A stretch of DNA of 62,114 nt, taken from NCBI RefSeq assembly GCF_944324745.1, contig NZ_CALUXO010000075.1:1-62114 (forward strand), read 5' to 3'. The stretch is from an uncultured Thomasclavelia sp. Lineage in GTDB: Bacteria; Bacillota_I; Bacilli_A; Erysipelotrichales; Coprobacillaceae. Below, one piece after another: positions 4 to 29,580 of the stretch (positions are counted from its first letter, which is position 1; every line of letters starts with the position of its first letter). The notes beneath the pieces were generated by a model. The model did no database searches. It was not told where the DNA came from and worked only from the letters and a program-made list of their open reading frames with translations. Position numbers and translations under genes: made by a program.

Positions 4-79
4 TGGTGACCCGCAGGCGATTCGAACGCCTGACCCTCTGATTAAAAGTCAGATGCTCTACCGACTGAGCTAGCGGGTC
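4..79 (-). tRNA. tRNA-Lys (TTT)
   Basis: Complete cloverleaf on the minus strand. The 7-bp acceptor stem pairs GACCCGC with GCGGGTC, CCA is encoded (positions 4-6), and the anticodon loop CTTTTAA gives anticodon TTT. It is the last gene of a tight five-tRNA run. Confidence 0.97.
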
Positions 80-83
80 ATAT

Positions 84-159
84 TGGCTGGGATACCTGGA
101 TTCGAACCAGGGAGATGACAGAGTCAAAGTCTGTTGCCTTACCGCTTGGCTATATCCCA
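84..159 (-). tRNA. tRNA-Gln (TTG)
   Basis: Complete cloverleaf on the minus strand. The acceptor stem is TGGGATA/TATCCCA, CCA is encoded, and the anticodon loop CTTTGAC gives anticodon TTG. It sits 4 bases from the neighbouring tRNA-Lys and belongs to the same transcript. Confidence 0.96.
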
Positions 160-166
160 ATGTTAA

Positions 167-250
167 TGGTGGAGGAGGGCGGATTCGAACCACCGAACCG
201 AAAGGAACTGAGTTACAGTCAGCCGCGTTTAGCCACTTCGCTACTCCTCC
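167..250 (-). tRNA. tRNA-Tyr (GTA)
   Basis: Long-variable-arm (type II) tRNA of 84 bases on the minus strand. The acceptor stem is GGAGGAG/CTCCTCC, CCA is encoded, and the anticodon is GTA. The extra arm, typical of bacterial tRNA-Tyr, is visible between the anticodon stem and T arm. Confidence 0.95.
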
Positions 251-253
251 AAA

Positions 254-329
<76 letters not shown>

Positions 330-346
330 TTTACTTTACTTTTAAA

Positions 347-422
347 TGGTGGAGGCTAACGGGCTCGAACCGCTGACCCTCTGCTTGTAAGGCAGATGCT
401 CTCCCAACTGAGCTAAGCCTCC
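347..422 (-). tRNA. tRNA-Val (TAC)
   Basis: Complete cloverleaf on the minus strand. The acceptor stem is GGAGGCT/AGCCTCC, CCA is encoded, and the anticodon loop CTTACAA gives anticodon TAC. It is the first gene of the tRNA operon, closest to the promoter. Confidence 0.96.
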
Positions 423-2830: not shown

Positions 2831-2971
2831 ATGAATAAAAATAATATCCGTAAACAAAAAATGATAGCTAGTATTTTATTAGATATTGGTTTAGATGATG
2901 AAATTATCGAAACGATTACATCATTGACCAAAGAAGAAATTGAACAAATAAATAAAAAAGACTCTTATTAA
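2831..2971 (+). CDS. Small protein of 46 residues upstream of the SAM riboswitch
   Basis: ATG at 2831 follows AAGGTGA at 7-base spacing, and the frame runs 46 codons to TAA at 2969-2971. The product is charged and predicted helical. Its stretch LLDIGLDDEIIETITSLTKE resembles the short helix-turn-helix-like tail repeat of Rpn/PD-(D/E)XK transposase-family proteins, but this is only a resemblance. The last codons lie inside the 5' strand of riboswitch stem P1 (2962-2969), so ribosomes finishing this ORF would cover part of the aptamer. It may be a real small protein or a translated leader; the good ribosome site favours translation. Confidence 0.55.
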   Translation: MNKNNIRKQKMIASILLDIGLDDEIIETITSLTKEEIEQINKKDSY

Positions 2972-3107
2972 GAACTACGAGATGAAGATCGATGATGTAG
3001 TGGCAACCCTATATTAAATTAGAAGGTGCCTGACTGAGCAAGGTTACACTTGAACAATGAGAGAAGGCTTCCTAAATATGTTTGCTTTCTCTTTAGGAAG
3101 CTTTTTT
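2962..3107 (+). promoter_or_regulatory. SAM-I (S-box) riboswitch controlling metK
   Basis: The aptamer is closed by P1 CTCTTATT/AATGAGAG (2962-2969 with 3056-3063). It contains a P2 stem ACTAC/GTAGT with kink-turn-like GATGA, then GGCAACC and AAGGTGCC, the conserved S-box core. The expression platform can be traced. An antiterminator pairs 3060-3068 with 3084-3092 (9 bp) and shares bases with the 3' strand of P1. When SAM stabilises P1, the terminator 3067-3076/3092-3101 with its T-run forms instead. This matches the known transcription-termination mechanism of S-box leaders. Confidence 0.9.
3067..3107 (+). terminator. SAM-dependent terminator of the metK leader
   Basis: A 10-bp stem GCTTCCTAAA/TTTAGGAAGC (3067-3076, 3092-3101) is followed by six T. 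It is mutually exclusive with the antiterminator described for the riboswitch. Confidence 0.9.
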
Positions 3108-9807: not shown

Positions 9808-10032
9808 GTTGAAAATCGATGATTAGGAGTAGTAGTAATTGAATTTTTTATAGAGAGTCAGTGGCTGGTGGAAACTGATAGAATAGATTATGAACTCGCC
9901 TAGGAGATGCAGTAGTGAAAAATAGTAGTTACTGCCGTTAACTGCGTTAAAGTTTTAAGCGCTAAGCATTTTATGCTTGGAACTAAGGTGGTAACGCGAT
10001 ATTAAGTCGTCCTTAGAGGGACGACTTTTTTA
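9808..10032 (+). promoter_or_regulatory. T-box riboswitch, leucine specific, controlling leuS
   Basis: This is a T-box leader. Stem I contains AGAGAG and GGTGGAAAC. The specifier region reads GAACTCGCC, giving a CTC (Leu) specifier codon. The T-box itself reads AAGGTGGTAACGCG (about 9984-9997), close to the consensus. A terminator stem AAGTCGTCC/GGACGACTT (10004-10012, 10019-10027) with six T follows. Uncharged tRNA-Leu would stabilise the antiterminator and allow leuS transcription. The upstream limit is approximate. Confidence 0.93.
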
Positions 10033-27112: not shown

Positions 27113-27143
27113 TATAAAAAAATAGAACCACAGTGGTTCTATT
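27113..27143 (-). terminator. Terminator of the MATE gene
   Basis: The stem AATAGAACCA/TGGTTCTATT (27121-27130, 27134-27143) has a T-run on the minus strand and overlaps the MATE stop codon. Confidence 0.85.
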
Positions 27144-28455
27144 TTAAGAACTTCTTAGTATTTTGATAAATGAAAACAATGCTTATTAATGAAACAATTA
27201 TTTCAGTTACCGGAAATGTAGCCCATACTCCAGTCATCTTGAATAGATTTGCTAATAAAAAAGCAGTAGGAATGATGATAATAAATCCTCTTAAAAGCGA
27301 AATAATATGAGCTGGTAATGAATGTTCAGTGGCGGTGAAATATATTGATGAAACGATATTAAAGCCCGCAAATAAACAGCCAATGAAATATATTTTTAAA
27401 CCAGCTTGACCAATTTCTTGTAATAAAGGATTATTTTCACTATTAAATATTTTAACGATTGTATCGTTATTAAAGATTATGATTAGATAAATTGTCATTG
27501 AAACGATGACAACCGTTATCAATGCATATTTAAAAATAGTCTTTACTTTTTTGATATTTTTAAGACCATAGCCATTACTTAAAAGAGGCTGAATTCCTTG
27601 CGATATTCCAGTATAAATAGAAATAACGACTAATGATAAATTGGCAATGACACCATAAGCGGCTACACCAGTATTGCCAGCTAACTGTAAGATAATAGTA
27701 TTAAAGACAATCATAACGATTCCAGAAGATACCTCGGTAATCAATGATGGTAAACCCCCAGAAACAATCTCGATAAAATATAATTTAGCAATTCTTTCTT
27801 TAATGATTTTAAAATGATTCTTTTTCTTAATAAAAAATGGTGAAAGAATCATCATGCTAATAACTGGAGCTAAGCCAGTTGCCAAAACAGCCCCAAATAT
27901 TCCCATATTGAAAGGAAACATAAAAACATAATCTAAGATAATGTTTGATAGACTACCACCAATCATGGCAGCCATTGATAATTGTGGTGCTCCATCATTT
28001 CTGACAAAACACAATAATAAGTTATTAAGCATGAACATTGGAGCAAACAATAAAATTATTTGTAAATAGGTATAGCACATGGAATAGACTTCTTCATTTG
28101 CTCCCAGCATTTTTACAATATTACCAGTAAAACAAATTCCAATGATAAAAAAGGTTAAAGCTATAATTAATGTTAGCATCAAAGCTTGAGTAAAGACACT
28201 ATTAGCGTTTTTATCATTATTTTGGCTTTTAAAAATTGAATATTTAATGCCTCCGCCCATACCGATCATTAAACCTGAACCATTAATAAAACTATAAATT
28301 GGGATAGCCAAGTTCAAAGCTGTCAGGCCGTTAGCTCCTAAAGATTTAGAGACAAAGAAAGTATCGGCTAAGATGTAACAAGATAACCCAATCATGCCTA
28401 AAACATTTAAACTGGTATATTTACTGTACTCTTTTAAATAACTTTGCTTTTCCAT
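27139..28455 (-). CDS. MATE family multidrug exporter
   Basis: A 438-residue protein with twelve hydrophobic segments in two homologous halves. The family block near residues 40-70 reads LGANGLTALNLAIPIYSFI and the glycine-rich LMIGMGGGIKYS follows. MATE proteins export cationic drugs using sodium or proton gradients. The start at 28455 follows AAGGAGG; the longer frame has no ribosome site. It is preceded by a roughly 100-base leader with a strong terminator-like hairpin (28481-28523), which suggests its expression is switched by attenuation. Confidence 0.92.
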   Translation of the reverse strand: MEKQSYLKEYSKYTSLNVLGMIGLSCYILADTFFVSKSLGANGLTALNLAIPIYSFINGSGLMIGMGGGIKYSIFKSQNNDKNANSVFTQALMLTLIIALTFFIIGICFTGNIVKMLGANEEVYSMCYTYLQIILLFAPMFMLNNLLLCFVRNDGAPQLSMAAMIGGSLSNIILDYVFMFPFNMGIFGAVLATGLAPVISMMILSPFFIKKKNHFKIIKERIAKLYFIEIVSGGLPSLITEVSSGIVMIVFNTIILQLAGNTGVAAYGVIANLSLVVISIYTGISQGIQPLLSNGYGLKNIKKVKTIFKYALITVVIVSMTIYLIIIFNNDTIVKIFNSENNPLLQEIGQAGLKIYFIGCLFAGFNIVSSIYFTATEHSLPAHIISLLRGFIIIIPTAFLLANLFKMTGVWATFPVTEIIVSLISIVFIYQNTKKFLK

Positions 28456-28588
28456 TTGGACCTCCTTTAAAAATAAAAAACCCCTAATCAATTTCAACTA
28501 TGGCCTACTGAAATTGATAGAGGTATTGTCCGGCGACAGATAGTTTAGTTTGCAACGATAGTTTATCAATTTTATAAGATGTTGTCAA
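28456..28588 (-). promoter_or_regulatory. Promoter and attenuator-like leader of the MATE gene
   Basis: Minus-strand TTGACA (28583-28588) and TAAACT (28560-28565) are 17 bases apart. The transcript then holds a small hairpin TGTC-GCCG-GACA. A long stem of about 15 pairs follows (CCTCTATCAATTTCA with TGAAATTGATTAGGGG, plus-strand 28481-28523), ending in six T: an intrinsic terminator inside the leader. An alternative pairing of AACTAT with ATAGTT in the terminator loop could act as antiterminator. It matches no riboswitch class I can name. Confidence 0.65.
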
Positions 28589-28650: not shown

Positions 28651-29580
28651 TTAGGCAATAAAAATCACAACAAATACATATACGATCAAAGTTATAATCA
28701 TATTTAATGAAATAAATGCTGAAGTAAAACTAGCGTCATCTTCATTTTGATATAATGGTGATATTTGCATTGGTAATGCAAATCCTGTTGGTGACATAAA
28801 GTAAATTAAAACCGCCATCAGATAAATTTCATCAGCCATTAATTCAGGAAAAATGATGAAAAATCCTAGAATAACTAAAAAGTAGAATAGAACTCTTACA
28901 GTTATCATTTTAATAATGACATTTAAAGTTTCTTTATTGATATTTAGATTATAACCAATAATAAATAAAATCATTCCAACGATTGGTCCTGTAACCATTT
29001 CGATTGTATTAGTATAGATGTCGATAAACTGGCTTGTGGCTAGAAAATTATAGACACCAGAAAAATTTAAAATCATTGCTAAAATAACAGCGATAACAAA
29101 TGAATTAGAAAATATTTTTTTTACTAATTGTTTAAAACTAACTTTACCAGCTGATATTTTTGCAACAATAACAGGTATGATTACAAAACACATTAAAGTA
29201 CCAGCTAAATCAAAAATAACAGTATTACTAGAACTTCCAACGATTGATAAGTATAATGGCAATGCTACATTACCACCTTCACAAGTTGTTAGCATATAAG
29301 GGGAAATATGACTGTATTTATGGTTAACTAACTTATTGATAACTTTACCAACTAAAACAGCAATGATAAATACAACAAAGACATATAATACGATCCATAT
29401 TGATGATGCTTCAATCGTTGAAGTTAAGATAATATTAAAAATTAAAAAAGGAAATAAGATATTGAAGATAATATGATTGGTTCCATCTTTTTGCTCTGAA
29501 GTAATCCATCCTCTGATTCTAGCAATTAAACCTAAAGCTACCATAAAAAATACTGGAAATAGTGTTGCTAAAGCGTTCAT
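28651..29580 (-). CDS. AEC family transporter (auxin efflux carrier/malate permease type)
   Basis: A 309-residue membrane protein with about ten hydrophobic segments. It has the N-terminal FFMVALGLIARIRGWI, a central motif TCEGGNVALPLYLSIVG (near residue 98) and the C-terminal SPTGFALPMQI, both conserved in the AEC family. Members carry organic acids or related small anions. The ATG follows AAGGAGA. It starts 9 bases after the GH1 stop, so the two are co-transcribed. An AEC carrier next to a glycosidase is unusual; it may export a product or import an organic-acid aglycone. Confidence 0.88.
   Translation of the reverse strand: MNALATLFPVFFMVALGLIARIRGWITSEQKDGTNHIIFNILFPFLIFNIILTSTIEASSIWIVLYVFVVFIIAVLVGKVINKLVNHKYSHISPYMLTTCEGGNVALPLYLSIVGSSSNTVIFDLAGTLMCFVIIPVIVAKISAGKVSFKQLVKKIFSNSFVIAVILAMILNFSGVYNFLATSQFIDIYTNTIEMVTGPIVGMILFIIGYNLNINKETLNVIIKMITVRVLFYFLVILGFFIIFPELMADEIYLMAVLIYFMSPTGFALPMQISPLYQNEDDASFTSAFISLNMIITLIVYVFVVIFIA

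Follow-up and report, generated by a model that had tools for sequence, protein, structure and literature searches.

A leader upstream of a MATE exporter gene in an uncultured Thomasclavelia sp. is very probably a guanidine-IV riboswitch

The leader of a MATE exporter gene in an uncultured Thomasclavelia sp. is very probably a guanidine-IV riboswitch of the transcriptional ON type, which controls the exporter. It lies on the minus strand of a contig of 62,114 nt, called the window here (the whole stretch of DNA that was analysed), and every element named by an earlier reader of this DNA is present in the sequence (Table 1). The earlier note was right in seeing a small riboswitch-type attenuator before a MATE exporter, as both the Pfam match of the protein and the conserved hairpins indicate. 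Its remark that the leader matches no class known to that reader has to be given up, since guanidine-IV fits by architecture, conserved bases, covariation of the loop–loop kiss and gene context. Most likely there is nothing unusual about the leader: it belongs to a published class and looked unknown because the Rfam library did not recognise that class. When the covariance-model search proposed in the earlier note was carried out with Rfam 15, both at the gathering score and at a relaxed E-value, no family gave a meaningful match at the leader, and there was no riboswitch match for the SMR-linked or PnuC-linked copies of the same RNA.

Table 1. Features of the MATE leader and its surroundings in the window
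Feature	Position	Strand	Details or basis
Promoter	28560..28588	-	-35 TTGACA 28588-28583, 17-base spacer, -10 TAAACT 28565-28560; 10/12 consensus matches
P1 hairpin	28527..28538	-	UGUC-GCCG-GACA, 4 pairs; fold and family alignments
Loop 1 kissing bases GCC	28534-28532	-	within P1 loop GCCG
P2 hairpin (intrinsic terminator)	28480..28524	-	fold and family alignments
P2 loop	28505-28503; 28498	-	kissing bases GGC; conserved G; alignments
Terminator U-tract	28475..28480	-	six U; sequence
Shine-Dalgarno of MATE gene	28461..28468	-	AAAGGAGG; sequence
MATE exporter gene (controlled gene)	27139..28455	-	438 residues, start codon at 28455; MatE PF01554, E = 8.7e-37
Upstream gene	28651-29580	-	same strand as leader; ends about 126 bases before hairpin
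SAM riboswitch, elsewhere in window	2962-3063	+	53.6 bits
T-box leader, elsewhere in window	9810-10017	+	151.8 bits
Five-gene tRNA cluster, elsewhere in window	7-422	-

According to the available text of its report, the guanidine-IV class, also named the GGAM-1 motif or the mepA motif, is a conserved RNA that may form a pseudoknot, includes a Rho-independent terminator and precedes sugE, MATE and PnuC genes (Lenkeit et al. 2020, PMC7736828). We compared this published text and its residue numbers with our own alignments. The leader has the same two hairpins, the second of which is an intrinsic terminator followed by a U-tract; the loops of the two hairpins can form a covarying pseudoknot; and it stands before a MATE gene, with relatives before SMR (sugE) and PnuC genes. 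In the L. lactis RNA, G66, U67 and G72 of loop 2 are reported as essential and G62 as important (PMC7736828), and in the C. botulinum RNA the kiss includes the pairs C30-G71 and A29-U72, with G77 being critical (eLife 2024, PMC11611296). By comparison by hand, the window carries G, G, C and G at the essential loop-2 positions with the published spacing kept. A matching change in loop 1 compensates for the C, and the resulting G-C is the same pair as in the tested C. botulinum double swap, A29G plus U72C, which restores the kiss (PMC11611296). It is on this agreement of architecture, bases, kiss and gene context with the publications that the class assignment is based.

There are some differences. 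The first kissing pair is G-C in the window and A-U in C. botulinum; the linker and P1 are short compared with described guanidine-IV RNAs; and the window and its nearest relative, L002, have UUGAA after the conserved G, where most relatives have AAGAU. The other guanidine-sensing riboswitch classes have in common with this leader the presumed ligand and the type of target, namely guanidine exporters, but their structures are unrelated to guanidine-IV (PMC7736828). What is established in the leader and its relatives is the anatomy, the conservation, the gene context and the covariation, which is seen in the two stems as well as in the kiss; guanidine binding, ON switching and the role of the loop bases are carried over from the published work on other members. 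By this analogy guanidine is the likely ligand, and we infer that the window copy binds it and that the MATE protein exports it.

The same leader was found before other MATE genes when the MATE protein was searched in 43 genomes of the window's family (loci L001-L030). Twenty-three loci were taken as orthologs (L001-L023, at least 38% identity). The leader is carried by 13 of them and is missing from the other 10, which counts against our reading. In L004-L007 it is located further upstream of the MATE ortholog; a small gene separates the two in L004-L006, and L007 has, by eye, an apparent broken copy of that gene. Across 11 of the leaders, 95.4% of the cells are paired in the structure of two stems plus kiss and 13 of the 20 pairs have changed on both sides, and none of 500 shuffles was as good on either measure. 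The hairpins are thus kept before related MATE genes; a lack of such conservation was what the earlier note had named as evidence against its reading. By eye, the leaderless orthologs L014-L017 have an inverted repeat like CTATAG...CTATAG within the promoter, and also what appears to be a divergent gene, read 3' to 5'; such a layout is typical of MerR-type regulators.

With E up to 0.1, a covariance model (R1) matched 16 of the 43 genomes of the family; in a sample of the phylum, with E up to 0.01, it matched 15 of 392 genomes. The genome of the window has one match, the score of which is not independent because R1 was built with the window included. In an alignment of 99 leaders (A4), the whole structure is 99.2% paired.

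Chance was also considered from the side of the window itself. The folding energy of the 88-base leader is -21.6 kcal/mol (z = -2.97), and only 2 of 200 shuffles were as good. This agrees with the long terminator of the earlier note, although a simple scan for terminators did not list the P2 stem, presumably because its conserved loop and its bulges fall outside the scan pattern. A structural descriptor and a sequence-only profile were both derived from 97 relatives, with the window and L002 excluded. The descriptor, which matches 85 of the 97 source leaders, matched the window exactly once, at the MATE leader, and had no match across 150 dinucleotide-shuffled windows. The sequence-only profile ranked the MATE leader at the top of the window, albeit weakly (E = 0.97), and the case therefore rests on the structure and the conserved loops. 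As for the promoter, the site pointed out in the earlier note does resemble the consensus, and a promoter-like site with at least 10 of 12 matches is present in 10 of the 16 family leaders; by itself, it is only suggestive, because when the 66 bases upstream were shuffled 200 times, 6% of the shuffles had a best site equally good.

The GCCG hairpin of the earlier note is the P1 hairpin, from which P2 is separated by two unpaired bases. The antiterminator pairing that was proposed with it does exist as a complementarity between GCC of loop 1 and GGC of loop 2, and it is best read as a loop–loop kiss, not as an alternative stem. Named genomes were scanned with a pattern which fixed the loop letters other than those of the first kissing pair; for this pair, either A or G was allowed in loop 1, and either C or T in loop 2. 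Among the first 80 of at least 117 reported stretches, this pair was A-T in 67, G-C in 12, G-T in one and A-C in none. In the 99 leaders aligned by the model, it was A-U in 73, G-C in 25 and G-U in one, and never A-C. Since 76 rows of that alignment came from the scan, the conservation of the fixed loop letters in these rows is not evidence; the agreement of the two free letters is. In L045 the third kissing pair is U-A instead of C-G. The kissing helix is 99.7% paired across the 99 leaders, and the value falls to 29–40% when the partners are slid by one to three columns. Of the 99 sources searched, which left out L040 (a near-copy of L035), L136, L138 and L139, L109 had no match and L073 had two. 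The latter, from Blautia sp. Marseille-P3087, has guanidine-IV leaders at 888-976 and 1499-1587, on one strand and with a spacing of about 600 bases; they may be switches arranged in series or may belong to two genes.

The published work suggests how such a leader would operate. Without ligand, the nascent RNA would complete the P2 terminator and transcription would stop ahead of the MATE gene. At high guanidine, the kiss of the P1 loop with the P2 loop would be stabilised, the base of P2 could then not close beside P1, termination would fail and the exporter would be made. It has been argued that a fully formed terminator leaves the linker too short for the loops to meet (PMC9788692). On paper, P1 with only the nine upper pairs of P2 comes to -10.4 kcal/mol, against -21.6 kcal/mol for the full fold. 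Because of this cost of about 11 kcal/mol, we infer that the choice would have to fall while the RNA is still being transcribed and the base of P2 is not yet finished.

Several other readings of the leader have to be weighed against guanidine-IV. Gd4v RNA, a published guanidine-IV variant with an unidentified ligand, has a near-identical architecture and an overlapping gene context that includes MATE genes, and its authors call the boundary between the two hard to draw (PMC9788692). In the strict form given in the available text, however, Gd4v never has a G at the conserved G position, and its terminator bears an additional hairpin (Lenkeit et al. 2022, PMC9788692). The window keeps a G at this position, as far as the base can be deduced from the published text, and the G is invariant in the 99 leaders of A4, in 76 of which it was fixed by the pattern. 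Nor does the fold of the window have an extra hairpin. Both Gd4v changes are present in three leaders from a search in the order of Veillonella (L199, L200 and L202), which we assigned to Gd4v by eye and which precede GNAT genes (L199 by Pfam, the other two by likeness); our own data thus show the same contrast. Gd4v was rejected on these two differences and is an improbable identity for the leader.

P2 could also be a plain terminator, without any sensing, that serves the upstream gene, which is on the same strand and ends about 126 bases before the hairpin; yet a promoter lies between that gene and the hairpin, and the same RNA is found elsewhere before unrelated genes. Moreover, conservation is highest in the loop, where a terminator would have no need of it, and covariation is seen in P1 and in the kiss; on account of this loop conservation and kiss covariation we rejected the plain terminator, which is very unlikely. 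The earlier note had also considered a sensing peptide of 16 residues, and an open frame of 16 codons (TTG...TAG, 28555-28505) without a ribosome site does span the leader. The TTG of this frame, though, is located at the predicted transcription start, right at the 5' end. In 16 family leaders, the window included, no start codon in the region has a ribosome site, the frames vary in start, length and sequence, and three leaders have no start codon at all. Without a conserved short frame with a ribosome site in these leaders, attenuation by a translated leader peptide was rejected as well, and hardly any credence can be given to it.

The genes that follow the guanidine-IV-type leaders were assigned by likeness to one example per type, and some by Pfam. 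Among 80 of the at least 117 scanned leaders, the downstream gene is PnuC in 59, MATE in seven, B3/4 in three, pyridoxamine-oxidase-like in two, and SMR and GNAT in one each, with seven having no assignable gene. L061 comes from the genome of Veillonella sp. R32, and a second covariance model (R2) was run on 40 genomes from the order to which this organism belongs. In L192, L193 and L213 it found leaders of the G-C type immediately ahead of SMR genes; among further G-C leaders, L180 is directly before an SMR gene and L185 precedes a B3/4 gene that has an SMR gene after it. A study of a canavanyl-tRNA deacylase reportedly linked that enzyme to B3/4-domain genes. Overall, the gene context of the related leaders agrees with the published sugE, MATE and PnuC. 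A guanidine-IV-type leader in L195 (genome G433) precedes a gene whose product carries the motif CNFNCIFC and is, by eye, a radical SAM protein, a context not named in the available portions of the published guanidine-IV texts.

These contexts raise the question of whether guanidine-IV consists of two working subtypes, split by whether the first kissing pair is A-U or, as in the window, G-C. Among the same 80 of at least 117 scanned leaders (L060-L139), 57 of the 60 A-U leaders with an assignable gene precede PnuC, and 10 of the 12 G-C leaders precede MATE, SMR, B3/4 or pyridoxamine-oxidase-like genes. If the subtypes were true, the set point might be adjusted by the swap, or a related compound might be what the PnuC-linked A-U group responds to. 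However, the sample is the first 80 of at least 117 rows, drawn with one pattern from related species; MATE genes occur with both types; and in L. lactis the validated sugE switch carries a U at the position of the first kissing pair (PMC7736828). For these reasons shared ancestry is the plainer reading, and two working subtypes are doubtful.

A different conserved leader was seen before distantly related MATE paralogs within the window's family (L219-L238, first in L024-L029). It has two small hairpins and a terminator, with a consensus around CUCGGAGGG...UCAUUC...GAAAUGA..AGCUGGAUAAGG...CAG.UUGAAAU..CUG...terminator. Its model (R3), with E up to 0.1, matched 22 of the 43 genomes of the family, the window's own genome not among them, and it matched three of 195 genomes in a phylum sample, all three of the same family. 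MatE was found in all 10 downstream proteins scanned, and 10 of the 21 predicted pairs have changed on both sides. The input structure of R3 was out of register by one or two columns; RNAalifold on the R3 matches gave a consistent fold. There was neither an Rfam match nor a published description that could be tied to the leader of L219-L238, which may be an unclassified switch.

For the MATE pump, the assignment to guanidine-IV would have several consequences. It suggests guanidine as the likely ligand for a protein otherwise filed as a multidrug exporter, and gives the direction of control, with guanidine turning the gene ON. With one model match and no SMR/SugE exporter found in the window's own genome, which is 95.6% complete, it may be the only switch-controlled guanidine exporter there. 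In the published work, as far as its available text goes, guanidine export by MATE proteins is rated as reasonable speculation or as likely, which makes this leader a clean test case. It is also worth pointing out that guanidine-IV leaders can escape routine Rfam annotation.
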